From: Variovorax paradoxus
GTDB lineage: Bacteria > Pseudomonadota > Gammaproteobacteria > Burkholderiales > Burkholderiaceae_C
Direction of reading: 5' to 3'
DNA: 64,000 nucleotides
Assembly (NCBI RefSeq): GCF_024734665.1
Contig: NZ_CP102931.1
Location: forward strand, 1,424,001-1,488,000
Shown here: piece after piece, positions 7,274 to 45,793 of the stretch
How the letters are laid out: every line of letters starts with the position of its first letter
How positions within the stretch are numbered: the first letter of the stretch is position 1
Program-made: the position numbers and the translations under genes
Notes under the pieces: generated by a model
Told to the model about the DNA's origin: nothing
Seen by the model: the letters and a program-made list of their open reading frames with translations, nothing else
Database searches by the model: none

Positions 7274-7792
7274 CTATGCGGAAGGAGGCGGGGGCGCGGT
7301 GGTAACCGTCGCCTGAGCCTGTTCCGCATCGCAGCGTTTCTTGAACTCGGCGTGGAGCTCCAGGAAGTGTTCCAGGACGTGCTTGTCGAGATCGTGGCGA
7401 GCCTTGATCCATGCCTCGACCGCCGGGTTCTTCTTCGCATCGATGAAGTACGCCCACCAGTAGTTGTAGACCAGCTCTTTGTCGAAGGCTTTCTTCTTGA
7501 CCAGGAGAGCCACGGTATCGAGCATGCCCAGCATGCTCTTTGCCGCATCGTCAAAGTCCTGGCCTTCGGCAACAGCCTTTTGCACGAGCTTCCAGTCAGC
7601 CATCAGCCCGGCGGTCCGCTTCTCGAGAAATCCGACGGTTTCCCGGTAGCGGGCGGACTTCGTATCCGCGTAGAGCTTCCAGATGAATGTGCATATGCCT
7701 GCGACCAGCGCCAGCAGCGAAAGCCAGTCGCGAAACGCAACGCCATTCTGCTGCGTCATCTGCTGGGCACACGCCGAGAGAATTTCGTTCAT
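7274..7792 (-). CDS. Small membrane-anchored protein of unknown function
   Basis: A 172-residue protein. The start was chosen at 7792 because AAGGAG lies 8 bases upstream and the frame further upstream is not protein-like. One hydrophobic segment near residues 20-38 (WLSLLALVAGICTFIWKLY) is followed by a charged helical cytoplasmic or periplasmic part with repeated Lys/Asp/Trp (GLMADWKLVQKAV, NYWWAYFIDAKKNP) and a Pro-rich end. The arrangement resembles the DUF4760-type proteins, single-spanning membrane proteins of unknown role; this is a tentative likeness. It stands alone between dctA and the MFS transporter gene. Confidence 0.7.
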   Translation of the reverse strand: MNEILSACAQQMTQQNGVAFRDWLSLLALVAGICTFIWKLYADTKSARYRETVGFLEKRTAGLMADWKLVQKAVAEGQDFDDAAKSMLGMLDTVALLVKKKAFDKELVYNYWWAYFIDAKKNPAVEAWIKARHDLDKHVLEHFLELHAEFKKRCDAEQAQATVTTAPPPPSA

Positions 7793-29103: not shown

Positions 29104-29130
29104 GGCTCGGGTTCGGGTTCATTCGGGGCG

Positions 29131-29228
29131 ACGCTCACGCCGACGGGGTACCTTGCTCCGCGAATGTCCTCCGCCCTTCGGGCTCCCCCTTTATTTCGCT
29201 GCGCAAGGCACCCCATCGGCGTGAGCGT
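29131..29228 (-). repeat. Structured dispersed element, copy A
   Basis: Outer stem arms 29132-29155 and 29204-29227 match at 22 of 24 positions, and both mismatches become G-U on the minus strand. The minus-strand core reads GCAGCGAAATAAAGG, then a hairpin GCCC-GAA-GGGC, then GGACATTCGCGGAG. It starts 27 bases after the lysR stop. See the finding on this family. Confidence 0.85.
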
Positions 29229-29534
29229 TCAGCGCCGCTGCGGAAGCTGCATTTGTTGGCGGTCGCCGAGACTTCGTGCCGCATGGAGCGGCTATTTCGC
29301 CGGGTTCTTCTCTAGAGTGGATGCCCCTGTCACTCGATACCCCAACAAAGGGAGAAGAAAGGCGCAACACACCCAAGTCACCCAGATGTTTGAAGGCTGC
29401 TTGCCTCGCGGCAGGTTGTCGGTGCGAAAGCAGCGATGCAGATGCGAGGTATCAAAAGGCGACGGCCGGGGCGTTATCAGCACCCCAGCCGTCTAACCAA
29501 GTTCGTGCACAACCCTCTAAAGGAACGCACAAAA
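29229..29534. other. Non-coding gap before the accessory gene run
   Basis: No gene-like frame is seen. A GC-rich inverted repeat lies at 29461-29493 (GACGGC-C-GGGG ... CCCC-A-GCCGTC, loop about 11), 42 bases before the next start, and could be a terminator-like or leader hairpin; there is no T tract. Confidence 0.4.
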
Positions 29535-29804
29535 ATGGCTACCAAGACTATAGCCCGGCCTCGCACGCCGGTAGCTTCCGAAGACAACGCCCAAGACCCG
29601 GCGGATCTTCTCGAAAACACCCTCTCTCAACTCGAAGCTCTCCTGTGGGTCTGCCACGGGGAAGACATCGACTGGTGCAGCGGGGATGGGCCTCGGCGAT
29701 TGGACAACTTGCTTTGGCTTGCGGCTGAGCTGGCTCGCAAGGCTGGGGAGCTGTTTCAGGTGAGTGAGAAGGCGCGACGTGGGGCGCCTGAGGCTGGCGG
29801 TTAG
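29535..29804 (+). CDS. Small helical protein of unknown function
   Basis: An 89-residue protein with AAAGGAA about 10 bases before its ATG. After a basic N-terminus (MATKTIARPRTPVA) it is mostly predicted helix: DPADLLENTLSQLEALLWVCHG, then DNLLWLAAELARKAGELFQV. The size, charge and helix pairing resemble small proteins common in Pseudomonas and Comamonadaceae whose role is unknown. It opens the plus-strand run of small genes at 29.5-34.6 kb. Confidence 0.6.
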   Translation: MATKTIARPRTPVASEDNAQDPADLLENTLSQLEALLWVCHGEDIDWCSGDGPRRLDNLLWLAAELARKAGELFQVSEKARRGAPEAGG

Positions 29805-30029
29805 CGGCTGGTCTGCGGGCTGCGGGTTTCGCGGCCCGCCTGGAGAGCGGGGTTCTTTGGGGTACGACGGCTGAAGCCTTCGTGATGGAGGGAATTCGGT
29901 TCGGCTGAGGCTGCTTGTGGGGTAGGCCTCGGTGGCAGCTATGCGCTCCATGCTGATCGTCGACAGACAATGCGAGCATCCGCTTTGCGGGCGGAAGCGG
30001 ACTGTCGCTGCTCAAGGCTAGACTTCCGA

Positions 30030-30053
30030 GTCCGGCCAGAACCGGACGCTCAA
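30030..30053 (+). repeat. Short dispersed GC-rich repeat
   Basis: GTCCGGCCAGAACCGGACGC matches the core of the family (CAGTCGGCCAGAACCGG). It lies 16 bases before the next gene start and shares its strand. Confidence 0.6.
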
Positions 30054-30068
30054 CCCCACCACTTACGC

Positions 30069-30575
30069 ATGATGAAGTTCAGCTATTCCTTCAGCCTCCC
30101 AACAGCAGCTTTCCCGCCGTCCGCGGAGAAACTTCACCCCTATGACTACAACGAGTTCCTGCTTAGCCTTTCGGTGGACTGGCGGCAAGTTCCGAACTCT
30201 AGGGAGAGAACACTGAGCTGGTACTCGGACAAGCTCAAAGCCGAAATCGTTGTCAGCGTGGACTTCTACGAAGTGCCTGAGAGTAAGTGGGCGAACGTAG
30301 CAGAGGTGACTCTCGACAGCCGGCACAAGGCCCTTGAAGAGGCTTGTGGCGATGCACTGACCGTAGTCAGCCGCAGTGCGAAGCCCTACTCTGGAGGTGG
30401 TGGACTCGAAATCAGCTACGCCGCGCATACCGACGACATGACTCACCTCTATCTCGGCTACGTCACGTCGCGCAAGGTATTCAACTTCTCGCTGACGGGA
30501 GGCGCGAACAAGGCCGCACTCATTGAGTTCTACAACAGGCTAATGCAGAGTCAGCTACGGGTGAGGGTTCCTTAA
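30069..30575 (+). CDS. Soluble protein of unknown function
   Basis: A 168-residue cytoplasmic protein with ATGATG start. It has alternating strand-like segments (KFSYSFSLPTAAF, LKAEIVVSVDFYEVP, WANVAEVTLDSRHK, THLYLGYVTSRKVFNFSLTG), giving the impression of an alpha/beta sandwich. I do not recognise a family. It has no signal peptide. Dispersed-repeat copies lie immediately before it and after it. Confidence 0.55.
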   Translation: MMKFSYSFSLPTAAFPPSAEKLHPYDYNEFLLSLSVDWRQVPNSRERTLSWYSDKLKAEIVVSVDFYEVPESKWANVAEVTLDSRHKALEEACGDALTVVSRSAKPYSGGGGLEISYAAHTDDMTHLYLGYVTSRKVFNFSLTGGANKAALIEFYNRLMQSQLRVRVP

Positions 30576-30645
30576 AAGGCTCGCTTTGAGCACAATGCAG
30601 GCGCTCGCGGATGCCCGCTCAGCGCCCCTTCGCGACAGCGGCGTG

Positions 30646-30678
30646 ACCGGCTACAGTCGGCCAGGACCGGTCAGTCGG
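30646..30678 (+). repeat. Short dispersed GC-rich repeat
   Basis: ACCGGCTACAGTCGGCCAGG followed by ACCGGTCAGTCGG. This is one of the fullest copies, the same sequence as 15304 on the opposite strand over its first 20 bases. Confidence 0.7.
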
Positions 30679-30710
30679 AGGCGACGTCCCATTCGCCCGA
30701 GAGCAGACCA

Positions 30711-30740
30711 GCAACAGTCGGCCAGAATCGGCCGGTCGCA
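30711..30740 (+). repeat. Short dispersed GC-rich repeat
   Basis: GCAACAGTCGGCCAGAATCG followed by GCCGGTCGCA, the second copy in the same intergenic space. A partial copy (GGCCAACTGCGGACATTCGC) follows at about 30757-30776. Confidence 0.65.
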
Positions 30741-30845
30741 GCGTCGAGAAAAATTTGGCCAACTGCGGACATTCGCTCTGCGACGCAACGCCGGAGCATT
30801 CAGGCGGGTGCAGTGGCCACTACACAAAAAAATGATGAGGGTGGA

Positions 30846-31052
30846 ATGAGAGATCGCTATACAAAACACCGATGGAAATTCCTATTGTTCGGAGCGGTAA
30901 CTGGCGTTCTGATGGGAATCTATGCGCCGACGGCAACCGAACCCGGCAACTTGTTCTTTGATCTCCTCGGTGGCCTAATACTTTGGTACGTCCTCTGGTG
31001 GTTGTGGGCTAGGAGCCGAAGGCGCATTGATCGCAGCAAAGAGCAGTCATGA
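30846..31052 (+). CDS. Small two-helix membrane protein of unknown function
   Basis: A 68-residue protein, start at 30846 after GAGGGTGGA. A basic N-terminus (RDRYTKHRWK) is followed by two hydrophobic segments, FLLFGAVTGVLMGIYA and LFFDLLGGLILWYVLWWLWA, and a very basic tail (RSRRRIDRSKEQS). Its stop overlaps the start of the next short frame (ATGA at 31049-31052). Confidence 0.55.
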   Translation: MRDRYTKHRWKFLLFGAVTGVLMGIYAPTATEPGNLFFDLLGGLILWYVLWWLWARSRRRIDRSKEQS

Positions 31053-31291
31053 GAGACAGTGTCATGCGAACGACAGCTTGCTGTCTGATTCCCATCGTCT
31101 TCGTCGTCTCTACGCCGATGCTGAGGATGGCTCAATAGGCAGAATTCGGCCACCACCTGACATTCACCGATGAAGCCCAATTCGCTTGGGAGCCAACGTT
31201 CGAGGCGATTACACGACAGTTTCGGGCCAACTTGAAACCGAACCCATTGAAGCGCGTGCACGCCAACTTAAGGCGCGTCAACAATCGCTAA
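31049..31291 (+). pseudogene. Short secreted-protein frame with an in-frame amber stop
   Basis: Starting in the ATGA overlap with the previous gene, 29 codons encode a signal peptide (VMRTTACCLIPIVFVVSTPMLRMAQ). A TAG follows at 31136-31138, and the same frame then stays open for 50 more codons (AEFGHHLTFTDEAQFAWEP ... RRVNNR) to 31291. The signal sequence ending exactly at the stop, with an open frame behind it, suggests a secreted protein gene interrupted by a nonsense mutation, though the second part could be chance. Confidence 0.4.
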
Positions 31292-31328
31292 TCGGTCGGT
31301 GCCGACCAACATTTCGGGCAATCAAGGC

Positions 31329-31679
31329 ATGGCGGACAAGCTAGACAAGTACAACGACGCGCTCTTTGCACTTCTGCATGAGGCGATTCGCTGCTCTCCC
31401 GAATCTTGGACGCGAGGCGTGCTCACGATTGACTGCGACGGTCACCGCATCAACTACGGGCTCAAAAACGACCAGTCGAATGACAAGGCGAGCATCTCGC
31501 AAGACCTTGCCCAGCTCTGCGAGCAGTACTGGGCGGTTTTTCAGGAGCACGGCGAAGCCTGGTTGGAATCGACTATCGAGTTCTATCAAGAAGATGGGAC
31601 ATGGAAGTTCAATGCGAACTACAAGCGACCTGAGAAGGTCCGAGCGACTCCCAAATCCTCATGGAAGTTCTGGCAGTAG
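31329..31679 (+). CDS. Possible YezG/DUF600-type immunity-like protein
   Basis: A 116-residue soluble acidic protein (a start 10 codons upstream at 31299 is also possible). The pattern of an N-terminal helix (KYNDALFALLHEAIRC), SPESWTRGVLTIDCDG, a helix (ISQDLAQLCEQYWAVFQEHG) and then STIEFYQEDGTWKFNANYKRPEK resembles DUF600/YezG, a family of immunity proteins of polymorphic toxins. The likeness is by eye. No toxin gene is adjacent. Confidence 0.55.
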   Translation: MADKLDKYNDALFALLHEAIRCSPESWTRGVLTIDCDGHRINYGLKNDQSNDKASISQDLAQLCEQYWAVFQEHGEAWLESTIEFYQEDGTWKFNANYKRPEKVRATPKSSWKFWQ

Positions 31680-31692
31680 GTTGAACTGCGCC

Positions 31693-31717
31693 TACCGGCC
31701 AAGACCGGCCGCTCGCG
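31693..31717 (+). repeat. Short dispersed GC-rich repeat
   Basis: TACCGGCCAAGACCGGCCGC followed by TCGCG, a variant copy enclosed by the inverted pair CTGCGCC / GGCGCAG (31686-31692 and about 31719-31725). Confidence 0.55.
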
Positions 31718-31826
31718 GAGGGCGCAGAATTCAGGCAAGAGCGGACCTTCGGCAACTCACAGACAGCCAAAAAGACGACTGGATGCGATCCGCCCGAACT
31801 CGCAATGTTTTACTGGGGAATAAACT

Positions 31827-32300
31827 GTGAGCTTTGTCGCGAGCGAAGACATCAAGCGGGAGGCGATGGCCGAGTGCATCAAATTGTCTGACTATGTTTT
31901 GGGCACGTTCGGGGGCGGATTGGACTGGACTGACGAGAGTATTGAGAAGGTTGAGGAACTTCTCGACTACTTTCATCAGCAAGCCCAAAACGACAAGCCG
32001 ACCGAGGCCGAAGTGTTCGCCTTTGCGAAAGGATTCGGTAGCTACATTGGAGAGGTTTACCGCCGAAATCACGGGGCCGAATGGGGGCTGGTAACGCTCA
32101 GCGGCAATACATTCCCTGGGTTGCGTTCAGATAGTGGCATCGAATTCTGGCCGTGGGGCCGCGCGCAGCAACGTATCGTTGAGGGGCCATCGAACAATGT
32201 TTGGCACTACTACCAAACGTTGGTGGCACGAGGTACTGTGAAAATTACACCGACCTCATCGGCGACGACCTGGTGGCGACGCATACGCGGTCGCTCGTAA
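31827..32300 (+). CDS. Soluble protein of unknown function
   Basis: A 157-residue protein with a GTG start. The N-terminal half is helical and acidic (DWTDESIEKVEELLDYFHQQAQ), then EAEVFAFAKGFGSYIGEVYRRNHGAEWG, then strand-like sequence with IEFWPWGRAQQRIVEG. The FGSYIGE...GAEWG segment recalls DUF3806-like proteins, but the likeness is weak. It has no signal peptide and no clear partner. Confidence 0.55.
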   Translation: MSFVASEDIKREAMAECIKLSDYVLGTFGGGLDWTDESIEKVEELLDYFHQQAQNDKPTEAEVFAFAKGFGSYIGEVYRRNHGAEWGLVTLSGNTFPGLRSDSGIEFWPWGRAQQRIVEGPSNNVWHYYQTLVARGTVKITPTSSATTWWRRIRGRS

Positions 32301-32448
32301 GCCGCACCCACCCAGAAGCGGACCTTCATGGCGCCCCCCATCGACACCTTCGGCCGATGGCGGGAATTTGATGACAAGCATTGGTGCGGGCCAAAAGTAA
32401 TCAGGCGCTGAACTCCCACCTAACCCATTCACTTGTAGCCTCTCCACC

Positions 32449-32970
32449 TTGAAAACACTTTTTGCCCCTGTTGGCGTTCTGCTGTTCGCATTGGGCGGAT
32501 GCGCCCATCCGCCTTTTATTCCTAGTACCGGCCCGAACACCGCTGTGGTGGAGTTTTCAAACGGTCCGCTCGGCTATACGCAGCAGTACTTCTTTGAGAA
32601 CCCGGTCACTTGTGAAGGGCCGTCAGTCATCTCCTCCCTTGACCCGCACGAGTCGAAGTCAGTTCGGATGCCCGCGGGTCGGCCAATAACAATATGGACA
32701 AGTGCGTGGGGACTTCCAGCGCCTTACGGCATGGTTGCGTGGTGTCGACCTTCGGCCTTCTCTACCCAACTTGTTGCCGGACGCTTCTACAAAGTGGAGT
32801 TCGCCGCCGACGTGGCGCAGAAAAGATGCGGGGCAGTGCTTACTTCGCGCGACGATTCAAGCCTGAAGTACATTCGCCGGCAAGTGGATGGTCCTGAGAT
32901 TGCTGGTGGGCCGCTTACAAAAGGCTTTCAGTGCAATCGGACCGATGATCTCTCGAGCCTTTCACGATAG
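32449..32970 (+). CDS. Lipoprotein of unknown function
   Basis: A 173-residue protein starting with TTG. The signal peptide ends in the lipobox ALGGC (Cys 18), so it should be lipid-anchored. The mature part has VVEFSNGPLGYTQQYFFENPVTCEG and paired Cys residues (CEG, WCRP, KRCG, QCNR) that could form disulfides in the periplasm. The family is not recognised. No strong ribosome site precedes the TTG, which lowers confidence in the exact start. Confidence 0.6.
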   Translation: MKTLFAPVGVLLFALGGCAHPPFIPSTGPNTAVVEFSNGPLGYTQQYFFENPVTCEGPSVISSLDPHESKSVRMPAGRPITIWTSAWGLPAPYGMVAWCRPSAFSTQLVAGRFYKVEFAADVAQKRCGAVLTSRDDSSLKYIRRQVDGPEIAGGPLTKGFQCNRTDDLSSLSR

Positions 32971-33066
32971 AGCGAGCGACGTTGTGCGAAACGCGTGCAC
33001 GCCTGCGTGCGGCCAATACCGGAAGTTCGCCCCCGCTCTCCAGTTCGCCATCCAACGACCATCGCG

Positions 33067-33351
33067 ATGCAGTTCTTGTTCGAAATCGAAGACGTGTTTG
33101 ACATCAGCAGCCGAGGATGTGTGCTCGTGCCGGGCGTCCCGGATGCGTTCCGGCGTGACGTGAAGACGGGCGAGCAGCTTCTCATCGTGACTCCCCAGGG
33201 CACATACATTCGAACCAACATCGCCGGTTTCGAAATGATTAGTCGCGGGCGGCCCATGGTTCACGCGCCTTTCTCCTTGCCCCGAGCGGTCAACAAGGCG
33301 AGTCTTCCCGTCGGGTCGAAGGTTTACCTTATCGACGCCACCGACGTCTGA
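33067..33351 (+). CDS. EF-Tu domain-like small protein
   Basis: A 94-residue protein; the start at 33067 (MQFLFEIEDVFDISSRGCVL) fits the fold. The pattern FxIEDVFxIxxRGxVLxPGxP near residues 4-25, then VKTGEQLLIVTPQGTYIRTNIAGFEMI, matches the beta-barrel of EF-Tu domain 2 found as stand-alone proteins in many bacteria. These have no GTPase and an unknown role. A dispersed-repeat copy begins at its stop codon. Confidence 0.65.
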   Translation: MQFLFEIEDVFDISSRGCVLVPGVPDAFRRDVKTGEQLLIVTPQGTYIRTNIAGFEMISRGRPMVHAPFSLPRAVNKASLPVGSKVYLIDATDV

Positions 33352-33373
33352 CGGCCACAACCGGTCGTTCGCT
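33351..33373 (+). repeat. Short dispersed GC-rich repeat
   Basis: ACGGCCACAACCGGTCGTTC followed by GCT. It directly follows the stop of the EF-Tu-like gene and carries the GTTCGC end found at 15304. Confidence 0.6.
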
Positions 33374-33490
33374 ATGTCAACGCAATGCGACTAAGAACAG
33401 ACATCTGGCCGCCCCAGGCAGCCGAGAACCGCCGCGCTCGCACTGTCACATTTTTGCTGTTTGAGGTCACCTAACTGAGGGAGAAATCTC

Positions 33491-33988
33491 GTGTATCACG
33501 TTATAGGGCTGTCACACAATCTCATCCTACATGCGCAGCCTTTCGAACCTCTGGAAATTGATGGTCGCCTCCGATTTAGCACTCGGCATCAGCAAGCCAA
33601 TGGCTACTTCAGATTGATTGCGCCGCATTTTGAGGCGTTCGCAATGCGAGATTCAGCCAAAGTCATAGGCGGCCTACACGTCGTGACGAGCCTTTCAGGC
33701 CACGATTTGCACGAAGCGCTGAGCATCTTGGATCAAATCGAGAAGCACATTACAGCCCTACCTCCTCACTGGCGCTCCTACCTCGGAACCACACAGCGTG
33801 GAAATGGCGCTGTGCAGCGCATGGAGCCGTTGTTGTTCAACAGCCGGGCGCTCCGCATAGTTCTGCACCTGAGGATGCTTGTCGTCTCGGCGTTGAAGCA
33901 GGGAAAATCCGTGTGCTATGGCAGTGGTGCTGTATATCGAGCTTACTGCGGGATCAGGTTGAAACCGGGCGAAGAATACTACTCATAG
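33491..33988 (+). CDS. Soluble protein of unknown function
   Basis: A 165-residue protein with a GTG start after GAGGGAGAA. Segments include IDGRLRFSTRHQQANGYFRLIAPHF, HVVTSLSGHDLHEALSILDQIEKHI and LRIVLHLRMLVVSALKQGKSV. The mixture of strands and helices suggests a small globular protein. The family is not recognised and no signal peptide is present. Confidence 0.55.
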   Translation: MYHVIGLSHNLILHAQPFEPLEIDGRLRFSTRHQQANGYFRLIAPHFEAFAMRDSAKVIGGLHVVTSLSGHDLHEALSILDQIEKHITALPPHWRSYLGTTQRGNGAVQRMEPLLFNSRALRIVLHLRMLVVSALKQGKSVCYGSGAVYRAYCGIRLKPGEEYYS

Positions 33989-34101
33989 AGGCGGATGCAG
34001 GGAACATTCGTGGACATGCTGGTACTGCGTATGCCGCTTCACGATGACTCCTTCCGAGCGCTGAGCTTGTCTACACCGGACTCTGCGCAAATGCCGACTC
34101 T

Positions 34102-34135
34102 TCGGCTCCAGTCGGCCACCAGCAGACGGTCGGCA
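34102..34135 (+). repeat. Short dispersed GC-rich repeat (divergent)
   Basis: TCGGCTCCAGTCGGCCACCA followed by GCAGACGGTCGGC, lying 31 bases before the next gene. It keeps the CAGTCGGCCA block but differs after it. Confidence 0.55.
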
Positions 34136-34166
34136 TCGATCTCTAATCGAAGCGCAACGGCGTCAG

Positions 34167-34637
34167 ATGATTCACGAAACCAAGCCCAAGCCCTCAATGC
34201 AAGAGACGTACATTCCCTTCACACCAGTTGCGGGTGTGGTTGCTCCATGCGCTTACGCGGTGCTTTGCACGGAGCCGGGCGACTACACGGTCCGACCCAG
34301 TTTCTCGAACGTTATCGGCGCTCCAGCGCAAGATCTACTGGTGCGCTTTGATAGCGTCATGGCCTGCATGTCTCATGCCGAGTTCTCACATCCGTGGGAG
34401 GCCATGTCGAAAGCCGAGTTACCTCGGCTTGAAGGGAGGTGGGACGGCTACGCATTCCCACTGCTGGAGGTTAAGGACTCTGATTGGTTGGCTTCCTTCA
34501 CGGACTGCCAGACCATCGGTTTGGCGAGAGACGTCGTTCGTCACTTCCGGTTTGTGAGTCTCGACAATGTTGTAGACGTACTGATGTATGGCGATGGCGC
34601 CGTGACGGCGGAATGGATCAGCGTCATGCAAGAGTAG
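34167..34637 (+). CDS. Soluble protein of unknown function
   Basis: A 156-residue acidic protein, the last of the small-gene run. It contains GVVAPCAYAVLCTEPGDYTV, LLVRFDSVMACMSHAEF and VSLDNVVDVLMYGDGAVTAEWISVMQE. No family is recognised and there is no signal peptide. An alternative start at residue 11 (MQETYIPFTP) is possible. About 320 bases further on is structured-element copy B; the space between (34638-34958) holds nothing recognisable except a weak partial copy of the short repeat near 34915. Confidence 0.55.
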   Translation: MIHETKPKPSMQETYIPFTPVAGVVAPCAYAVLCTEPGDYTVRPSFSNVIGAPAQDLLVRFDSVMACMSHAEFSHPWEAMSKAELPRLEGRWDGYAFPLLEVKDSDWLASFTDCQTIGLARDVVRHFRFVSLDNVVDVLMYGDGAVTAEWISVMQE

Positions 34638-34958
34638 GCGCGAAGACTTCTTCTTGGGCGAAATTGCGGCCGTGCGGGAAAGACGTAGAAGTCGCATATC
34701 GAACGACTGCTTTTAGGCAACTTGTATGGCAGCTTGGGGCCCTGTGCTGCCGTCCACCCGACAGTTACGGATGTCTGCTTTGCAGTCTGAAGCGAGCATC
34801 GAACGCAGTCGTACCAATCTCGACCGTGACCGACGCCGGCCCTTCGGAGTTCTGCTTGTCCAGCGCCCGTCTTTCGCGAAAGCTCAGTGGTGCGCCCGCG
34901 CATGTCCATCTGCAATCCGCCACAGCGGTCGAACCGCCAACGCCACAGCCGCGCTCAT

Positions 34959-35058
34959 CGTGCGCAGGGCATCGGGTGCTCCCCGCAGCGAAATAAAGGA
35001 GGAGGGGCGCAGCCCCGGGGGACATTCGCGGAGGGGAGTACCCGGTGTCCTGTGCACG
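34959..35058 (+). repeat. Structured dispersed element, copy B
   Basis: Arms 34960-34983 and 35034-35057 match at 20 of 24 positions; all four differences are G-U pairs on the plus strand. The plus-strand core reads GCAGCGAAATAAAGGAGGAG, hairpin GGGGC-GCA-GCCCC, then GGGGGACATTCGCGGAG. It lies 37 bases beyond the stop of the minus-strand dehydrogenase gene. Confidence 0.85.
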
Positions 35059-35094
35059 CGCCCTGAACAACGGCGCACAGAACGCAACAAGAAA

Positions 35095-35985
35095 TCAGCG
35101 CAGCGCTTCGACCAGATCCAGCACCATCCGGTCAGGCCCGAACTTCTCGACACCCTGAGTCAACAGCGCATCGACAGCCTGCGCAATGCCATGACTGGAA
35201 GATGACTGCTCCGCCATGTCGTTGTAGTACCCCAGGTCCTTCTTGGCATTGGCCATCGAGAACTTCAGTGAGTCGGTGCTGCCGGTTAGAAGCTTGGGCT
35301 TGACGCGCTCCAGCGCCACACCGTTGCCGCCGCCCTTGGCGAGCACGTCGACGAACACATCGGGCTTCACGCCCGCGCGCTCCGCACAGGCAGCAGCCTC
35401 GCACAGCAGCGCCACGGTGCCCAGCGACACGAAGTTGTGCAGCAGCTTCATCGCATGGCCCGCACCGATACCGCCCACGTGCGTGACGTTCTCGGCAAAG
35501 CAACGCAGCAGCGGCAGGCACGAGGCCAGCACCTCGGCGTCGCCGCCCACCAGCAGGTTCAAGCGGCCTTCAGCGGCTTCCTTCGCGGTGCGGGTCATCG
35601 GCGCATCGATGAACTTGCCGCCCTTGGCGCTCACTGCTTCCGCCACCTTGGCGGTGGAGGCGGGAACGGCCGTCGAGCAGTCGATCACCACCGTGCCGGG
35701 ACGCAGCGCAGTCAATGCACCCTTGTCGCCGAGCATCACCGCCTCGACCTGCGGCGTGCCGGTGACGCACAGGATCAGCACGTCGACCTGTGCGGCCAGC
35801 GCGGCCACATCTTTCACCGAGGTGGCGCCGGCCTTCAGCAGGCCGTCGATGGGCTGGTTGCCCGCGTGCTCCAGCACGGTGAGCTGATGGCCGTGCTTGA
35901 CGATGTTGCTGGCGATGCCGTGGCCCATCAGGCCGACGCCGACGAGGCCGACTTTGCGCGGCGTTTGCTGTTCAGTGGTTGTCAT
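35095..35985 (-). CDS. 3-hydroxyisobutyrate dehydrogenase-family NAD(P)-dependent oxidoreductase
   Basis: A 296-residue beta-hydroxyacid dehydrogenase. The Rossmann start GLVGVGLMGHGIA (13-25) binds NAD(P), FIDAPMTRTAKEAAEGRL (125-142) corresponds to the substrate-binding signature, and Lys 180 in GAGHAMKLLHN is the catalytic lysine. It interconverts a hydroxy acid and a semialdehyde, such as hydroxyisobutyrate or tartronate; the exact substrate is unknown. It is the last gene of a minus-strand cluster, 9 bases after the aldehyde dehydrogenase gene, which suggests consecutive steps. Confidence 0.9.
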   Translation of the reverse strand: MTTTEQQTPRKVGLVGVGLMGHGIASNIVKHGHQLTVLEHAGNQPIDGLLKAGATSVKDVAALAAQVDVLILCVTGTPQVEAVMLGDKGALTALRPGTVVIDCSTAVPASTAKVAEAVSAKGGKFIDAPMTRTAKEAAEGRLNLLVGGDAEVLASCLPLLRCFAENVTHVGGIGAGHAMKLLHNFVSLGTVALLCEAAACAERAGVKPDVFVDVLAKGGGNGVALERVKPKLLTGSTDSLKFSMANAKKDLGYYNDMAEQSSSSHGIAQAVDALLTQGVEKFGPDRMVLDLVEALR

Positions 35986-35994
35986 GTGTTGTCT

Positions 35995-37443: not shown

Positions 37444-37466
37444 TTGATTTGTCTCCTTGCGGCCAG

Positions 37467-38867
37467 TCACTTGGGTTCCGGCCAGGGTTTTTGTGCTTCG
37501 CGGATCTGTTCGAAAGCGCGGCTGAACTGCAGCACGCCCAGGTCGTCGAAACGGCGCCCGGCAATCTGCAGGCCGATGGGCAGGCCCTCGGCCGAGTAGC
37601 CGCAGTTGATTGAGGCAGCTGGCTGCTCCGACATGTTGTAGGGCACCGTGAAGCCGATGTGTTCCAGCGGCAGCAGCGGGTTGTTGGTCGGCGAGGCGTG
37701 GTCCGCGGGCGCGGGCATGTTGGGCGACACCGGCGAGATCACGAAGTCGTAGGCCTTGGTGGCGGCAACGGTGGCCGCGCGCGTGGCGATGAACTGGCTG
37801 TAGGCCTCGAAGATGTGCGCGCCGGAGAACCCGGCCGCGCTCTCGGCCCAGGCGCGGATGTACGGCAGGATCTTCGCGCGCTTCTCGGCGGGCATGGCCT
37901 GCGTGTCGATGAACGAGCGCATGCGCCAGAAGTGGTCCATGCCCTGCAGCATCTTCGGCGTCATGAAGGGCTTGATTTCCTCGACCAGCGCGCCGGCCGC
38001 TTCGATGCGCTTCGCAGCGCGGCGCACCGCCTCGGCGATCTGCGGGTCCAGCGGCAGGCCGCAGCCCGCGTCCATGTGCAGCGCCACGCGCTTGCCCTTG
38101 ATGAACGACGGGTCGACTTCGAAGGCCGTCCAGTCGATGCCCGGCGCCGGCAGTTCCGAATAGTCGCGGTCGTCGGGCTGTGCGACAGAGGCCATCATCA
38201 GCGCCGAGTCGGCCACCGTGCGCGTCATTGGACCGGCGCAGCGGCCCATGTACGGTGTGCTCAGCGGAATACGGCCGAAGCTGGGCTTGAGCGTGTAGAT
38301 GCCGCACCAGCTGGCCGGCAGGCGCAGCGAGCCGCCGATGTCGGTGCCCACGTGCAGTGGGCCGTAGCCCGCGGCAGCCGCCGCACCGGCACCCGCGCTG
38401 GAGCCGCCCGGCGTGCGCGACAGGTCCCACGGGTTGCGCGAGAGTTCATGAAAGCTCGACAGGCCCGACGACAGCATGCCCAGGTCGGGCATGGTGGTCT
38501 TGGCGACCAGCACCGTGCCGTCTTCCTTCAGGCGCGCGGCGGGCGGGGAGTCTTGCGTCATCGGCACGAGGTCGTAGGCGGCGGTGCCCAGCGGCATCGG
38601 GTCGCCTTCGGTCGCGAGGTTGTCCTTGATGGTCACGGGCACGCCGTCGAGCGTGCCGCGCGGCGTGCCGGCCAGCCAGCGCGCCTCGGAGGCGCGGGCC
38701 TGTTCGAGCGCAAGCTCGGGGCGGAAGAGCCAGGTCGCGTGCAGCTCAGGCTCGTAGGCCGCGATGCGCTCGTTCACCGAGCGCGCCACTTCCACCGGCG
38801 AGAGCTCCTTGGCGGCGTAGGCCGCGTGCAGCTCCTGCACGCTCAGGGAGTACAGGGGCCTGGTCAT
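37467..38867 (-). CDS. Amidase (amidase-signature family)
   Basis: A 466-residue hydrolase of the amidase-signature family. The triad is visible: Lys 81 in TIKDN, Ser 156 in GGSSAGAGA and Ser 180 in GTDIGGSLRLPA. Length and motif spacing are normal. It hydrolyses a carboxamide to acid plus ammonia or amine. The gene begins 4 bases from the end of the ABC binding-protein gene, so the amide is likely to be the compound imported by that system. No signal peptide; cytoplasmic. Confidence 0.92.
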   Translation of the reverse strand: MTRPLYSLSVQELHAAYAAKELSPVEVARSVNERIAAYEPELHATWLFRPELALEQARASEARWLAGTPRGTLDGVPVTIKDNLATEGDPMPLGTAAYDLVPMTQDSPPAARLKEDGTVLVAKTTMPDLGMLSSGLSSFHELSRNPWDLSRTPGGSSAGAGAAAAAGYGPLHVGTDIGGSLRLPASWCGIYTLKPSFGRIPLSTPYMGRCAGPMTRTVADSALMMASVAQPDDRDYSELPAPGIDWTAFEVDPSFIKGKRVALHMDAGCGLPLDPQIAEAVRRAAKRIEAAGALVEEIKPFMTPKMLQGMDHFWRMRSFIDTQAMPAEKRAKILPYIRAWAESAAGFSGAHIFEAYSQFIATRAATVAATKAYDFVISPVSPNMPAPADHASPTNNPLLPLEHIGFTVPYNMSEQPAASINCGYSAEGLPIGLQIAGRRFDDLGVLQFSRAFEQIREAQKPWPEPK

Positions 38868-38871
38868 CGCA

Positions 38872-40365
38872 TCAGCTCCACGAAATTGCGGCCAGGTCGT
38901 TCACCACGATCGGCATGCTCGGCCACAGGCCCTTCACTTCCTTGCGTGCGATGGTCGGGAACACCGCCTGGTACAGGAAGCCGTTGACCGCATCGGATGC
39001 CAGCTGCCGCTGTGCTTCGGCCAGCAGGTCGGCGCGGCGCTTCTTGTTCTCTTCGTTCTGGATGCTGACGAACAGGTCGCGGAACTTCTTCGAGTCGTAG
39101 CCCCAGTAGTAGTCGGGCTCGGTGTACTTCACCAGGTCGAAGGGCTCCACGTGCGCGACCATGGTCAGGTCGAAGTCGTGCGCGCCGCCGAAGGTGCCGC
39201 TGAGCCACTGGGCCCACTCGACGTTCTGGATCTTCACGTTGATGCCGATCTGCGCGAGCTGCGCCGCGATCATCTCGCCACCCTGGCGTGCATACGAAGG
39301 CGGCGGCAGCTGCAGGCGCAGTTCGAGCGGCGTCTTCACGCCGGCTTCGGCCAGCAGCTTCTTCGCCTTCTCGATGTCGAAGGGGTTCATCGCCGTGGTG
39401 TCGATGAAGCCCGGCGCGCCCAGGGCGTAATGGCTGCCGATGGGCCTGCCGAAGCCGTCCGCCGCGCCCTGGACGATGGCGTTGCGGTCGATGGCCGCGA
39501 GGATGGCGCGGCGCACGCGCACGTCGTCCAGCGGCTTCTTGCGGTTGTTGATGGTCAGGATCACCTTGCCGCGCGTGCCCACCTCGATCACCTGGAAGCG
39601 TGGGTTGCCCTTGAACTGGCTCACCGAGCGCGTGCCCGCGCGCGGGAAGATGTCGATGTCGTTCGACAGCAGCGCGGCGGTCTGCGCGGCCGTGTCCGAC
39701 ATGAAGCGGAAGACGAACTTCTCGGTCTTCGCAAGGCTCGGGTCGCGATAGGTCGGCGACTTCACCAGCGTGCACGAAGCGCCGCGCTGCCATGCGCTCA
39801 GCTTGTACGGGCCGGTGCCTACCGGCGCAGTGACGTTGGTCTCGGCGCTCTTGGGCTCGACGATGCAGGCGGTCGATTGCCCCAGCATGAACGGCAGGTC
39901 GGGGTTGGGCAGCGTGCTGTTCACGCCCACCATGTACTCGTCGAGCACCACGGTGCCGATCTCGCTGAAGAAGCGCTTGTCCTTGTTGGTGCTCTTGGCG
40001 CCGCCCGCGCGGTCGAACGAGAACTTCACCACCGACGCATTGAAGGGCTGGCCGTTCTCGAAGCGCACGCCCTTGCGCAGCCTGAAGACGAAGGTCTTCA
40101 TGTCGGGCGACGACGTCCAGCTCTCGGCCAGCATCGGCGTGACCGAACCGTCGGCGTTCACCTTGGTGAGCGTCTCGAAGATGTTGTACTGCGTGATCTC
40201 CGCGATGGCCGATGCGGCGCCGCTCGTCGGGTCCAGTCCTGGCGGTTCGAGCGGCATGCCGATCGTCAGCGTGTTCTTGCCGGCCTGCGCGCGGGCCTGG
40301 GGCAGGAATACACCCGGGATTGCCGCGGCCATGGCGGAAGTCATGAGTGTGCGTCGCTTCAACAT
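38872..40365 (-). CDS. ABC transporter substrate-binding protein, family 5 (dipeptide/oligopeptide type)
   Basis: A 497-residue periplasmic binding protein. A basic N-terminus (MLKRRTLMTSAMAAAIPGVFLPQARAQ) is a signal peptide. The mature start TLTIGMPLEPPGLDP, then LAESWTSSPDMKTFVFRLRKGVRFENGQPFNASVVKFSFDR, is the SBP family 5 signature; RGKVILTINNRKKPLDDVRVRRAILAAIDR is the second conserved block. Family members bind peptides, opines, nickel, glutathione or amides. It sits between the ABC ATPase gene and the amidase gene in the same strand cluster. Confidence 0.92.
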   Translation of the reverse strand: MLKRRTLMTSAMAAAIPGVFLPQARAQAGKNTLTIGMPLEPPGLDPTSGAASAIAEITQYNIFETLTKVNADGSVTPMLAESWTSSPDMKTFVFRLRKGVRFENGQPFNASVVKFSFDRAGGAKSTNKDKRFFSEIGTVVLDEYMVGVNSTLPNPDLPFMLGQSTACIVEPKSAETNVTAPVGTGPYKLSAWQRGASCTLVKSPTYRDPSLAKTEKFVFRFMSDTAAQTAALLSNDIDIFPRAGTRSVSQFKGNPRFQVIEVGTRGKVILTINNRKKPLDDVRVRRAILAAIDRNAIVQGAADGFGRPIGSHYALGAPGFIDTTAMNPFDIEKAKKLLAEAGVKTPLELRLQLPPPSYARQGGEMIAAQLAQIGINVKIQNVEWAQWLSGTFGGAHDFDLTMVAHVEPFDLVKYTEPDYYWGYDSKKFRDLFVSIQNEENKKRRADLLAEAQRQLASDAVNGFLYQAVFPTIARKEVKGLWPSMPIVVNDLAAISWS

Positions 40366-40413
40366 TCGATAGTTCCTGGAGGTGAGGGTGGAGGAAAAGA
40401 AAGCCTTGCCCGG

Positions 40414-41225
40414 CTAGCGGGACGGCGTGTGCAGAACGGCGGAAAGCAGGGTGCGCGTGTACTCGTGCTGGGCGTGCTGGAACAGGTCAGCCGGGCGGCC
40501 CCGTTCGACGATGCGGCCCTTGAAGACCACGCAGACTTCGTCGCACAGGTGGTTGACCACCGCAAGGTCGTGGCTGATGAGCAGGTAGCTGATGCCGAAC
40601 TGCTGCTGCAGGTCTTGCATGAGGTTGAGCACCTGGGCCTGCACGGACACGTCGAGCGCACTCACCGGCTCATCGGCGACGATGAGCTTGGGGCGCGTGA
40701 TGAGCGCGCGTGCGATGGCGATGCGTTGCCGTTGTCCGCCCGAGAACTCGTGCGGGTACTTGTCCATGTCGGTGGTGCGCAGGCCAACCGCTGCCAATGC
40801 TTCGGAAGCGCGTTCGCGCTGCACGGCGCGGCTGGTCTCGGCCAGCGCTTCGAGCGGCTCGGCGACGATGCGTGCGACCGTCTGGCGCGGATCGAGCGAA
40901 CCGTACGGATCCTGGAACACCATCTGGAAATCGCGCCGCGCGGTGCGCAGTTCGGCCTTGGGCAGCGCATGCAGGTTGCGGCCTTCGAGCGAGACAGTGC
41001 CCGAGGTGGGTGTGTCGAGCGCCATCACGAGGCGCGCGATGGTCGACTTGCCCGAGCCCGATTCGCCGACGATGCCCACGCTCTTGCCGGCCTGCACCTC
41101 GAAGCTCACGCCGTTGAGCGCCTTCACGGTCGGCGGCGGGCCGAAGAGCTTTTCGCGCGGCAGGGCGTAGTGGCGATAGAGGTTGTTCACGGCCAGCAGG
41201 GGCTGACCGGCGGTGGTGGGCTTGC

Positions 41226-41229
<4 letters not shown>
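40414..41229 (-). CDS. Dipeptide-type ABC transporter ATPase (DppF-like)
   Basis: A 271-residue ATPase: Walker A GESGSGKST near 58, the Q loop FQDPYGSLDPRQT, the signature FSGGQRQRIAIARAL, Walker B LIVADEPVSALD, and the H-loop ISHDL. The C-terminal extension typical of oligopeptide ATPases (YTRTLLSAVLH) is present. The start at 41229 overlaps the stop of the companion ATPase gene (ATGA). Together they energise the two permeases. Confidence 0.93.
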
Positions 41230-42221
<992 letters not shown>

Positions 42222-42226
42222 GGCGC

Positions 42227-43108
42227 TTACCGGGCTCTGGCGAGGCGGGGGTCGAGCAAGTCGCGCAGCCCGTCGCCAAGGAGGTTCAGCCCCAGCACTG
42301 CGAGGGCGATCGCCATGCCGGGGAAGACGGCCAGCAGCGGCTGCTGGAACATGAGGGTCTGCGCTTCGCTGAGCATGCGGCCCCACGAGGGTTGCGGCGG
42401 CTGCGTGCCCAGGCCCAGGTAGGAGAGGGCGGCCTCGGCCAGGATGGCGATGGCGAAGCGGATGGTGATCTGCACGATCAGCACGGCCGAGATGTTGGGC
42501 AGCACGTGCTGCATGGTGATCGCGAATGGGCCCTTGCCGCAGGCGCGTGCGGCGGCCACGTACTCGCGCGACCAGATTGCGTTGGCCGAAGCCCGTGTGA
42601 TGCGCGCGAAGGTCGGAATGTTGTAGATGCCGATGGCCACGATGGCATTCACGATGCCCGCGCCGAACACGGCGGTCATCATGATGGCCGACAGGATCGC
42701 AGGGAAGGCCAGCGTGAAGTCCGACAGCCGCATCACCGCTTCTTCGACCCAGCCGCGTTTCGCGGCCGCGAGCAGGCCCAAGGCGGTGCCGACCACCAGG
42801 CCGATACCGACTGCGATCACGCCCACGAGGATGGATGCGCGCGCACCAACCAGCAACAACGAAGCCACGTCGCGACCGAACGCATCGGTGCCGAGCCAGT
42901 GCGAGGCCGAAGGGGCCTGCATCTTGTTCGGCATGTCCATCGCATAGGGCGACCAGGGCGTCCACACGAAGGACACGAGGGCGGCCAGGAGCAGCAGGGC
43001 GGCCAGCACGCCGCCGATGACGAAGCTGCGGTGCTTCAGCGCGCGGCGCCAGAAGCCCGGCACCTTGAGCGCCGCGGCGCTTGGGCTTGGAATGGCAAGG
43101 GTACTCAT
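42227..43108 (-). CDS. ABC transporter permease (DppC-like)
   Basis: A 293-residue membrane protein with about six membrane segments, the first at about 28-50 (FVIGGVLAALLLLAALVSF). The long soluble loop carries GTDAFGRDVASLLLVGARAS, the usual DppC start of the permease core. The EAA loop that contacts the ATPases reads EYVAAARACGKGPFAITMQHVLPN. Its start overlaps the stop of the DppB-like gene. Confidence 0.92.
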   Translation of the reverse strand: MSTLAIPSPSAAALKVPGFWRRALKHRSFVIGGVLAALLLLAALVSFVWTPWSPYAMDMPNKMQAPSASHWLGTDAFGRDVASLLLVGARASILVGVIAVGIGLVVGTALGLLAAAKRGWVEEAVMRLSDFTLAFPAILSAIMMTAVFGAGIVNAIVAIGIYNIPTFARITRASANAIWSREYVAAARACGKGPFAITMQHVLPNISAVLIVQITIRFAIAILAEAALSYLGLGTQPPQPSWGRMLSEAQTLMFQQPLLAVFPGMAIALAVLGLNLLGDGLRDLLDPRLARAR

Positions 43109-44055
43109 ATGTCGCTGGCCTTGATGCGCGGATCGATCACGGCGTACAGCACGTCGACCACGAAGTTCACGATGACCACCATGGCCGCCAGCAGCATCAC
43201 GCAGTTGCGCACCACGATCAGGTCGCGGTTGCTGATGGCCTGGAAGATCAGCCGGCCCAGGCCCGGCAGGTAGAACACGTTCTCCACCACGATGGTGCCG
43301 GCCAGCAGCTCGGAGAACTGCATGCCCATCACGGTAATGACGGGGATCATGGCGTTGCGCAGCACGTGGGTCCACAGCACTGCACGTTGCGACACGCCCT
43401 TGGCGCGGGCAGTGCGCACGAAGTCTTCGCGCATCACTTCGAGTACGGCCGAGCGGGTGATGCGCGCGAGGATTGCTGCTTGAACAACGGCAAGAGACAG
43501 CGCCGGCAGCAGCAGCGACTTGATGCCCGAGAAGATGCCTTCGCTCCAGCCCTCGAAGCCACCAGCGGAGAACCACTGCAGCTGCACCGAGAACACGAGG
43601 ATCAGCAGGATGGCGAACCAGAAGTTCGGAATGGCGATGCCGACCTGGGCCATGCCCATCAGGCCGACGTCGCCAAGCTTGTTGTGGCGGGCCGCGGCCG
43701 TGACGCCGACGAGCAGCGCAATCACGACGGTGAGGGCCATCGCAAGCATGGCGAGAGGCACGGTGAGCGCGAGGCGCTCCAGGATCAGGTCGAGCACCGG
43801 CGAGCTGTAGGCGTAGCTGTCGCCGAGGTTGCCGGTGAGCAGGCCGCCGATCCAGTGCCAGTAGCGGGTCCATGCGGGCAAGTCGAGACCCAGTTTCGTT
43901 GCCAGTGCCGCGACGGCTTCGGGTGAGGCGTCTGGGCCCATGAGCATCTGCGCTGCATTGCCCGGAAGAATCTCCAGTACCAGGAACACGATGATGGATG
44001 CGCCCACCAGGGTGCCGATGAGCGTCAGTGTGCGTTTCAGCAGGAACAGGCCCAT
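43105..44055 (-). CDS. ABC transporter permease (DppB-like)
   Basis: A 316-residue membrane protein starting with the typical short cytoplasmic part and membrane segment (LLKRTLTLIGTLVGASIIVFLVLEILPG), the DppB-type loop around GLDLPAWTRYWHWIGGLLTGNLGDSYAYSSPV, and the EAA loop DFVRTARAKGVSQRAVLWTHVLRNAMIPV. It is the first of the four importer genes. Between it and the upstream dehydrogenase gene lie structured-element copies C and D, so transcription from the dehydrogenase gene must pass through both to reach it. Confidence 0.92.
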   Translation of the reverse strand: MGLFLLKRTLTLIGTLVGASIIVFLVLEILPGNAAQMLMGPDASPEAVAALATKLGLDLPAWTRYWHWIGGLLTGNLGDSYAYSSPVLDLILERLALTVPLAMLAMALTVVIALLVGVTAAARHNKLGDVGLMGMAQVGIAIPNFWFAILLILVFSVQLQWFSAGGFEGWSEGIFSGIKSLLLPALSLAVVQAAILARITRSAVLEVMREDFVRTARAKGVSQRAVLWTHVLRNAMIPVITVMGMQFSELLAGTIVVENVFYLPGLGRLIFQAISNRDLIVVRNCVMLLAAMVVIVNFVVDVLYAVIDPRIKASDI

Positions 44056-44106
44056 TTCAGTGACTCCGCTCTGCGTTGTGTCGTTGGGTGTTCTTGTTCG
44101 GGGTGC

Positions 44107-44200
44107 GTGCGAATGACACCGGGTGCTCCCCTCCGCGAATGTCCCCCGCCTTCGGCTCCTCCTTTATTTCGCTGCGGGGAGCACCCGGTGCCATTCGCAC
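44107..44200 (-). repeat. Structured dispersed element, copy C
   Basis: Arms 44107-44130 and 44177-44200 match at 23 of 24; the one difference is a G-U pair on the minus strand. The minus-strand core reads GCAGCGAAATAAAGGAGGAG, hairpin GCC-GAA-GGC, then GGGGACATTCGCGGAG. It is inverted relative to copy D. The 43-base spacer between them (44201-44243) is bounded by its own inverted repeat, ATGGACGC ... GCGTCCAT. Confidence 0.87.
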
Positions 44201-44243
44201 ATGGACGCGGCTGTAGTGCTGGCCGATCAACCGCTGCGTCCAT

Positions 44244-44339
44244 CGATCACGTCGATGGGGTGCTCTGCGCAGCGAAATAAAGGAGGAGGCCGCAGGCCGG
44301 GGGACATTCGCGGAGCAGAGAACGCCGTCGGCGTGATCG
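44244..44339 (+). repeat. Structured dispersed element, copy D
   Basis: Arms 44244-44268 and 44315-44339 match at 21 of 25; two differences are G-U pairs on the plus strand and two (44258 and 44262) are true mismatches. The plus-strand core has GCAGCGAAATAAAGGAGGAG, hairpin GGCC-GCA-GGCC, then GGGGGACATTCGCGGA. It lies 22 bases beyond the stop of the minus-strand dehydrogenase gene. Confidence 0.85.
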
Positions 44340-44361
44340 CTCCCTGAACAAGAGCAGTGCG

Positions 44362-45444: not shown

Positions 45445-45793
45445 TGACTCAACCTGTTCCAAGTTCGTTTCGTTCGGTGCGCCAGCGCTCGTGACGCCGG
45501 GCTTGTCGAAAAATTCTAGAAGCGAGAACTGGGCCTGAAGAGGGGGTTGGCACTCAAATGGCCTTGACAAAATAAGAAGGCAAAGCGGAACGCCTTCACA
45601 GGAGATTTCTCGGATTTCTTGTCATTAAATTGACTTTGACTTCAGAAAATTAGAAGGCGACAAGCATCCGCGACCGACCGCTTGCCGGCTCCGACAACCG
45701 GTTCATGAAGGTTTTCTGAAGCCCTCGGCGCGGGCGTACCGGATACTCCACGCGCTTGCGATGCGCTCCGCAGAGACCGCCGCCTGGAGGACC
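45445..45793. other. Divergent intergenic region (dehydrogenase / histidine kinase)
   Basis: The 349 bases hold no gene. They contain the direct repeats and inverted repeat listed at 45569-45658 and must contain promoters for both flanking genes. The TTGACA at 45564-45569 would be a good -35 for rightward transcription, but no clear -10 follows at the right spacing. Confidence 0.45.
45569..45658. promoter_or_regulatory. Direct-repeat regulatory site
   Basis: AAAATNAGAAGGC occurs twice in the same orientation (45569-45581 and 45646-45658), 77 bases apart. The first also forms an inverted repeat GAAGGC ... GCCTTC (45576-45597). A binding site for a regulator of the dehydrogenase gene or the kinase gene is likely; no regulator gene is adjacent. 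Confidence 0.45.

Follow-up and report, generated by a model that had tools for sequence, protein, structure and literature searches.

The 64,000 nucleotides of Variovorax paradoxus DNA analyzed here (the window; positions 1,424,001 to 1,488,000 of the 7.29-Mb contig NZ_CP102931.1) carry four copies, A to D, of an intergenic hairpin element of ca. 95 nt. Copy A (29131..29228, minus strand) points with its outer end towards the stop codon (29103) of a LysR-type gene, copy B (34959..35058, plus strand) faces the stop of a 3-hydroxyisobutyrate-dehydrogenase-like gene (35095-35985, minus strand), and copies C (44107..44200, minus strand) and D (44244..44339, plus strand) face the start of an ABC permease-like gene (43105-44055, minus strand) and the stop of a tartrate dehydrogenase gene (44362-45570, minus strand), respectively. 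Two classes of arms distinguish the copies, type 1 (e.g., GTGCGAATGGCACCGGGTGCTCCCC; B and C) and type 2 (e.g., GATCACGTCGATGGGGTGCCTTGC; A and D). A first-pass annotation of this DNA had listed the four copies and overlooked their arrangement: C and D form an outward-facing pair of unlike hairpins, 43 bp apart, in a unit of 254 bp, and one stretch of 5.9 kb is bounded by A and B. This C/D mini unit (44096..44349; outer limit inferred from the end sequence common to copies) consists of GTTCGGGGTGC, the C hairpin, a centre, the D hairpin and GCTCCCTGAAC, and the centre (44201..44243) contains a possible short hairpin (ATGGACGCGG / CCGCTGCGTCCAT) read from the sequence by eye. The A-B composite (29121..35068) comprises a type-2 end, a platform segment, cargo and a type-1 end.

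All four copies, which measure 94 to 100 nt, are predicted to fold into arms of 25 to 26 bp that enclose the stem GCGAA/TTCGC together with an inner hairpin, the loop of which is GAA or GCA, just as the first-pass annotation had described the triloop. The first conserved core (GCAGCGAAATAAAGG, exact match) occurs at four places in the window where 0.00 were expected from 100 shuffles, and the second (GGACATTCGCGGAG), searched with up to two mismatches, gave four matches, all of them exact, against 0.92 expected, with 1 of 100 shuffles reaching four. Exact matches to both cores are confined to copies A to D, and a covariance model run over the window at E ≤ 1 recovered the same four together with a reverse-strand echo of A and no further match. 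The arms pair within each copy as had been proposed, with 98 of 100 arm pairs being either Watson-Crick (89) or G.T (9, on the core strand); the remaining two are mismatches in the arms of copy D. Since there are nine G.T and no A.C pairs among the 100, the earlier count of nine transition-type differences out of nine on this strand was correct. The core strand is also predicted to be the more stable one in all four copies (-54 to -72 versus -42 to -60 kcal/mol).

The element is present on a far larger scale than its four copies in the window suggested, with 65 exact cores on the contig. Among them are 24 close pairs, every one of which is outward-facing and combines one type-1 with one type-2 hairpin, as well as two far-apart pairs, A-B and the pair of locus L026 (2.75 kb). 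Another 13 copies are unpaired as judged by the exact core, although for at least one of these (L042) a partner exists in which the core is altered.

Comparison with relatives revealed that the same junction can be empty, hold a pair of ca. 330 bp or hold 1.4 to 12 kb of DNA, depending on the species. Between two succinate-CoA ligase genes that flank a pair here, six relatives have the genes directly joined, and in one further genome (G020) an outward pair separates the flanks, which are ca. 350 bp from each other. A site between two ABC permease-like genes is empty in nine inspected relatives and filled in one (G362, 92% alike there). At the site of the far-apart pair of L026, hereafter S2, nine genomes are empty (37 to 72 bp), six carry an insert of 327 to 361 bp with a pair, i.e., a mini unit, and six carry platform-bearing stretches. 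Relics are found there as well, with only type 1 left in G364, only type 2 in G359, a shortened centre in G034 and, by eye, only the ends in G366. The flanks of the A-B composite (site AB) are contiguous in six genomes and 3.5 to 12.3 kb apart in ten, nine of which have the platform segment, the exception being G014. To the left of the composite in G369, the flank (L383 986-1049; G369:C41:327985-328048) repeats ca. 60 bp of the 3' end of the right-flank gene (81% alike), a possible trace of the mode of insertion.

For analysis of covariation, 62 copies (90 to 109 nt as cut) were chosen from 296 distinct copies so that their arms are less than 72% alike and then aligned; poorly pairing rows were kept, namely the type-1 copy of L026 with its 2-base insertion and those of L072, L120, L296 and L309. 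Under the structure derived from the window, 85.3% of cells pair, compared to 36.9% to 41.3% in six slid versions and 57.6% after shuffling. The score for covariation reaches 0.629, compared to 0.166 upon shuffling and no more than 0.150 upon sliding. Among the outer pairs, 27 of 32 show changes on both sides, as do 8 of 9 among the inner ones, and RNAalifold arrived unaided at the same fold. The GCGAA/TTCGC stem is invariant in this set; the copies had been fetched with core patterns that hold the stem itself, so the constancy of the core is partly a matter of construction. We therefore turned to partner hairpins, which were found for 99 of 151 pattern copies (52 had none); 74 of them match the pattern and 25 do not, and two of these 25 (L201 and L272) look like chance matches. 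Eight of the 25 pattern-free partners, counted from the list by reading, differ in both strands of the inner stem and yet retain its pairing (GCGGC/GCCGC, GCAAA/TTTGC, GCGGA/TCCGC, GCGAC/GTCGC or GAAAA/TTTTC among them), which supports the earlier suggestion of a third stem, and most of the 25 retain the loop sequences ATNAAGGNGGA and GGNGGACA.

A palindrome maintained at the level of double-stranded DNA would covary too, which makes the polarity of the wobble pairs informative. Among distinct arm pairs, the ratio of G.T to A.C on the core strand is 112:10 for type 1 (51 arm pairs), 133:4 for type 2 (51 arm pairs, here any copy of the own genus with an arm not beginning in GT) and 93:12 for other genera (41 arm pairs); in the diversity-selected set it is 131:32, with 48 rows for, 4 against and 10 equal, all of these cells being partly inherited and hence not independent. 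The first-pass annotation had made its idea of a conserved single-strand structure depend on covariation in a many-copy alignment and on an unequal distribution of wobbles between the strands, and we find both, by a test that is not phylogeny-aware, in the two hairpin types and in other genera. The two types within a pair lie on opposite strands and show the same polarity, so that single-stranded DNA, and not one transcript, can preserve both. The loop motifs GGN1GGA and CGGN2GG have coupled middle letters (A,G in 255 copies, G,A in 32, C,G in 5, A,A in 4 and G,G in none of 296), and 258 of the 296 copies read GGGGGACATTCGC. That the loop forms a two-layer G-quadruplex is only an idea.

Stems that are free to change as long as they pair, a loop that is kept, the outward pairing, the strand polarity and the presence or absence at orthologous junctions are together explained most simply by a mobile unit with ends that are read as single strands. 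We thus consider it probable that these hairpins bound non-autonomous mobile DNA units with two unlike, strand-specific ends that are moved by a structure-reading enzyme acting in trans.

The placement of the units relative to genes was determined with gene calls from a home-made codon model in this genome and other Variovorax loci. From a set of 56 pairs, 18 with a neighbor more than 250 bp away and 2 at locus ends were excluded, and of the 36 placed pairs 27 are tandem, 9 convergent and none divergent. Leaving aside also 8 untyped pairs and the convergent ones, type 1 runs along transcription in 12:2 cases in this genome and 9:0 elsewhere (21:2 in total), and a looser tally by eye of this genome only gave 18 with and 4 against. 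Relative to replication, the orientation looked even when judged by eye from coordinates, an impression on which nothing here rests. Over the same 56 pairs, excluding 12 untyped pairs, 20 far neighbors and 1 missing neighbor, type-2 ends are turned to a stop in 27 cases and to a start in 4, with a median of ca. 31 bp to the stop, and type-1 ends to a start in 29 cases and to a stop in 7, lying in sense at a median of 40 bp ahead of the start codon in those 29 cases. Either targeting or the survival of harmless insertions may account for the orientation relative to stop codons, and the data do not distinguish between the two. The strong strand-specific fold, the co-directional gene junctions and the sense position of type 1 ahead of start codons would also suit a transcribed, cis-acting RNA in which hairpins at operon junctions stabilize the upstream messenger, end transcription or tune the translation of the next gene. 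In such pairs, on the other hand, type 2 is antisense to the genes with its polarity unchanged (133:4), which the transcript of these genes cannot maintain. The element is moreover missing from the same junctions in relatives, and Rfam yielded no match in the window above the gathering cut-off (at E ≤ 5, the C/D unit matched MIR162_2, mir-2147 and isrG, all far below it). The first-pass annotation had offered a transcribed structured RNA as one of two options, and we regard it as unlikely given that the hairpins of a pair fold on opposite strands with like polarity.

Around the pairs, sequences reading about GTTCRGGGYGC and GCRCCCYGAAC by inspection mark the ends, and several single copies show such an end where the second hairpin is missing, so that terminal inverted repeats surround pairs and one-hairpin copies alike. 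The same ends are found on core-less micro forms of ca. 75 bp with an identical joint, which we counted by eye at 21 of the opened loci; CGGGG is common to both of their breakpoints, which makes repeated slippage deletion the simplest cause. Hits reading CGCC or CGGC, most of them in G029, were considered as further micro forms and, upon opening the loci, appear to be ordinary copies with an inner hairpin that ends in this way; their tally was discarded. Beside some units, two to four tandem repeats of the outer end GCRCCCYGAACAGCA were noticed by eye (L401, at G011:C2:45300-46500, and L399).

These shared ends would be expected of an ordinary miniature inverted-repeat transposable element (MITE) of a cut-and-paste (DDE) insertion sequence (IS), the enzyme of which reads the 10- to 12-bp ends in double-stranded DNA and for which the hairpins are passengers. 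The units resemble MITEs in being small and non-autonomous and in combining short terminal inverted repeats with many copies, and some MITEs have been reported to mobilize genes (PMC10969869). Unlike in MITEs, the conserved signal resides in internal hairpins, with the inner loop kept even in pattern-free partners, and the ends differ between copies within this genome and were not recognized by eye in other genera. The strand polarity would also find no explanation in an enzyme blind to the hairpins. No autonomous IS with the same ends was recognized in the first 260 bp of 14 core-less end-like sites of this genome, four of which are micro forms; for two of the 14, which have an inverted partner end within 1.5 kb, lists of open reading frames (ORFs) were added. 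We judge a MITE of this kind to be improbable.

The A-B composite illustrates what the larger units contain. Adjoining its type-2 hairpin, the platform segment (29245..29850, plus strand; right edge approximate, ca. 600 bp shared) is common to composites and, counting weak matches, present in 18 of 61 genus genomes. It holds a conserved ORF of 89 residues (29535..29804, plus strand) with 146 homologues, of which the 120 listed are named hypothetical protein and come, where an organism is given, from Variovorax. On the type-1 side, composites share up to ca. 300 bp; in the window, this segment including hairpin B (34768..35072, plus strand) is common to the composites of L026 and L105, with shorter matches in L373, L383 and L384. 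The middle differs between composites and is represented here by a variable cargo (29990..34760, plus strand) of small orphan ORFs with repeats of 27 to 36 nt between several of them. In both the window (30025-34135) and L105 (3119-6401), small orphan ORFs are separated by repeats of 27 to 40 nt (CTACAGTCGGCCANAANCGGWC type), and a 644-bp cargo stretch that is 96% alike at two sites ends close to such repeats. A second, finer exchange system may thus operate inside the units. Beyond the two far-apart pairs, this genome has a third platform site (L373), where a cargo ORF of 722 residues (3054-5222) has a weak, below-cut-off match to AAA_13/SMC.

A 2.2-kb block with a GntR-type aminotransferase regulator, 92% to 97% identical, recurs in platform-bearing stretches at three sites, S2 (G371, G009 and G380), AB (G368) and S3 (G359). 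The same cargo at several sites, together with the finding that one site can hold, depending on the species, either a mini pair or the platform with differing cargo, is also what one would see if the pair were a fixed, integron-like attachment site for the insertion and exchange of cargo that is not itself mobile. We regard this as very unlikely: mini pairs outnumber composites here (24 close pairs versus two far-apart ones and the third platform site) and are themselves missing from orthologous junctions, and composites add the platform segment, so that insertion of single cassettes is not the sole step.

If the units are indeed mobile, their life cycle could be pictured as follows. Each end would be a hairpin of ca. 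95 nt, the folded form of which is kept on the outward-running strand and most likely recognized as single-stranded DNA, e.g., in the lagging-strand template or an excised intermediate. The enzyme supplied in trans would read the purine-rich inner loop (ATNAAGGNGGA / GGNGGACA), and the stems would need only to pair. Most units lie immediately past a stop codon, which their type-2 end faces, and hold between their ends either a short centre (mini units, ca. 250 to 350 bp) or the platform segment and cargo genes (composites); they would later decay through deletions. An HUH/Y1 protein would fit as the enzyme, given that HUH (Y1) enzymes read the folded single strands of IS608 and are thought to do likewise for repetitive extragenic palindromes (REPs) (PMC6006769); none was found linked to the element. 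Anatomy, covariation, strand polarity, presence or absence at orthologous junctions and the recurrence of a cargo block were observed, and movement itself, the single-stranded step, the enzyme and the gain of cargo belong to the proposed model.

Several observations weigh against this reading, beginning with the search for an enzyme. No mobility enzyme was found among 40 ORFs scanned against Pfam, a set drawn from far-apart pairs and platform stretches of this and other genomes (three ORFs from the small pairs of L236 and L241) that covers the minority of the 115 cargo ORFs listed. The eight ORFs between A and B and a ninth gave no Pfam match at E ≤ 0.01, which bears on the first-pass statement that the window has no transposase for this stretch only, and the matches among the 40 are accessory (GntR-type aminotransferase regulator, AAA_13-like, Sel1, GGDEF and others). 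A Y1 gene exists in 58 of 61 genus genomes, which answers in part the first-pass proposal to look for a REP-associated tyrosine transposase (RAYT), and none was found flanked by the core: it is absent from all eight opened Y1 loci, and a Y1 homologue was found in only 1 of 327 partly overlapping core-holding loci, 5.2 kb away. The Y1 gene does not track the element either, as it is present in eight genomes without the exact 15-letter core (G002, G005, G012, G013, G015, G024, G028 and G036), and G035, a single contig, has no Y1 match and 8 cores, so that we rejected a RAYT link. Y1 scores tend by eye to be higher in element-rich genomes, a trend that relatedness alone could cause. The gene itself is TIRYT-like and occurs once per genome in nearly all genus genomes (L189 1174-1866, with matching genes in L185 to L188 and L190 to L192), next to a gene that we take to be gltB, and is followed by a conserved repeat of its own that holds GGGGTCAG in most of the eight loci.

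The orthologous sites provide further points of the same tendency. At S2, inserts of 166 bp (G025) and 895 bp (G007) without a hairpin match fit none of the forms, and the six platform stretches all have a type-2 hairpin; type 1 is matched at full length in three of them, weakly so in two of the three. By the model, five of the ten filled AB genomes have both hairpins, four have one and one has none; the AB stretches of G369 and G010 contain hairpins several kb inward from their ends. In the genomes compared we saw neither excision nor circles nor fresh insertions, and the joints of the empty orthologous sites are too diverged to read a target duplication. Cargo could be exchanged by homologous recombination between existing units. 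On the side of the structural evidence, the tally of pairs changed on both sides (35), one of five covariation measures, was reached in 47 of 500 shuffles, and the wobble bias, the cells of which share descent, could stem in part from mutation of exposed strands. Transfer between species is likewise unexplained: a similar pair is found in three plasmid records, all from Variovorax and 1.19 to 1.30 Mb in size, no similar stretch in phage records and no match to the exact pattern among IMG/VR viral contigs.

Among the closest known systems, REPs and their doublets (REPINs, or BIMEs) with associated RAYT genes resemble the element in their high and variable copy number, intergenic location, paired inverted hairpins and strand-specific structure. 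The first-pass annotation had inferred a REP/REPIN-like mobile hairpin, and this holds with regard to copy number, inverted pairs, intergenic position and presence or absence at orthologs and fails in length, tag and a linked tyrosine transposase. REPs are 20 to 40 bp long with GTAG or CGTC tags (PMC3733652), or 21 to 65 nt (PMC6006769), in contrast to an element of ca. 95 nt with two unlike partners per unit, cargo-bearing versions and no linked RAYT found. Within 12 nt outside the arms of the 65 copies, GTAG and GGAG never occur and CGTC occurs 18 times on the 5' and twice on the 3' side. We therefore rejected membership in the REP/REPIN class despite the inverted intergenic doublets. CGTC-tagged REPs resemble the element as palindromic repeats without a known dedicated transposase (PMC3733652), but they are much shorter and the tag is not general here. 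TIRtrons are longer, partly self-complementary repeats around Y1 (TIRYT) genes, single or paired, many with the motif GGGGWSAS, and have been reported in S. maltophilia (PMC3733652). The core gives GGGGACAT, which agrees with this motif in 7 of 8 letters and thus does not contain it, the TIRYT-like gene of the genus has another repeat, and no gene was found flanked by this core.

Integron attC sites share strand-specific folded recombination hairpins and small cargo genes, whereas here two hairpins in inverted orientation make up each unit. ROSE-G RNA thermometers (PMC12857270) are structured elements ahead of ABC transporter genes with one tested example from Variovorax; this candidate was rejected since their hairpin of CUGCU with the Shine-Dalgarno sequence at the start codon is another motif than this core. 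The text of RepRanger (PMC12306157) does not mention Variovorax, Burkholderiales, Comamonad, Acidovorax or Betaproteobacteria, PMC2817692 names Variovorax once in another context, and a literature search judged by titles and abstract openings, which covered few subscription journals and no figures, turned up nothing recognizable as a description of the family. All in all, the family probably has its place among non-autonomous mobile elements that bear hairpins.

Across a sample of relatives, the exact core was found in 28 of 61 genomes, all 28 of them Variovorax, with 0 to 139 copies per genome among 37 genomes of the genus and none in the 24 genomes of other families. The exact 15-letter core undercounts variants, as seen in G362, where a looser 12-letter pattern has 69 matches that mostly differ by one letter. 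The search of Variovorax and its relatives that the first-pass annotation had proposed extended the range to 13 of 141 genera of the family (25 of 299 genomes, own included) with a 17-letter core pattern, a lower bound as it rests on one exact pattern, and to relatives of Xanthomonas. In a sample of the GTDB class, the covariance model with stricter filters matched 5 of 369 genomes, one of them weakly. Variovorax, Ramlibacter, Rhodoferax, Hydrogenophaga, Pseudorhodoferax and Xylophilus as well as Lysobacter, Luteimonas, Pseudoxanthomonas, Thermomonas, Stenotrophomonas and one Stagnimonas are among the matches listed, some as metagenome bins. The family is thus seen in Variovorax and its relatives and again in those of Xanthomonas; NCBI taxonomy places Variovorax in the Betaproteobacteria and Luteimonas in the Gammaproteobacteria.

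We suggest, tentatively and as a possibility that we rate below even, an undescribed gene-carrier of Beta- and Gammaproteobacteria with unlike, strand-specific ends that are read as single-stranded DNA, set behind stop codons and kept fixed as the genes between them are loaded, unloaded and exchanged, and with a conserved purine-rich inner loop of two GGNGG tracts, coupled in their middle letters, that may adopt a special fold. If true, it would be a gene-moving device between REPINs and integrons that can exceed 100 units in a genome, leaves genes unbroken and carries accessory genes. The variable stems and constant inner loop would then amount to a natural experiment from which the recognized structure can be read, and the empty, mini and loaded versions of one site across species would make gain and loss testable.

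The arrangement of the hairpins is retained across this range. Based on 179 matches, excluding reverse-strand echoes and matches cut at locus ends, close neighbors in 100 of at least 119 stretches are outward-facing in 56 of 57 cases, with 40 to 56 bp between them in 46 of the 57. Wider pairs surround genes in L236 (Brachymonas), where an outward pair 795 bp apart encloses a TumE toxin/HVO_A0114-type gene pair (6754-7397), and in L241 (Xylophilus), where a pair 651 bp apart encloses a DUF2306 gene. An apparent far-apart pair in L106 (G020) was rejected because it comprises two distinct sites, of which one is a close pair with a core-changed partner, and the genes of this stretch look ordinary. 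In G142 (L123 1094-1430), two cores in the same direction are separated by 336 bp, in which a strongly altered partner hairpin is visible by eye.

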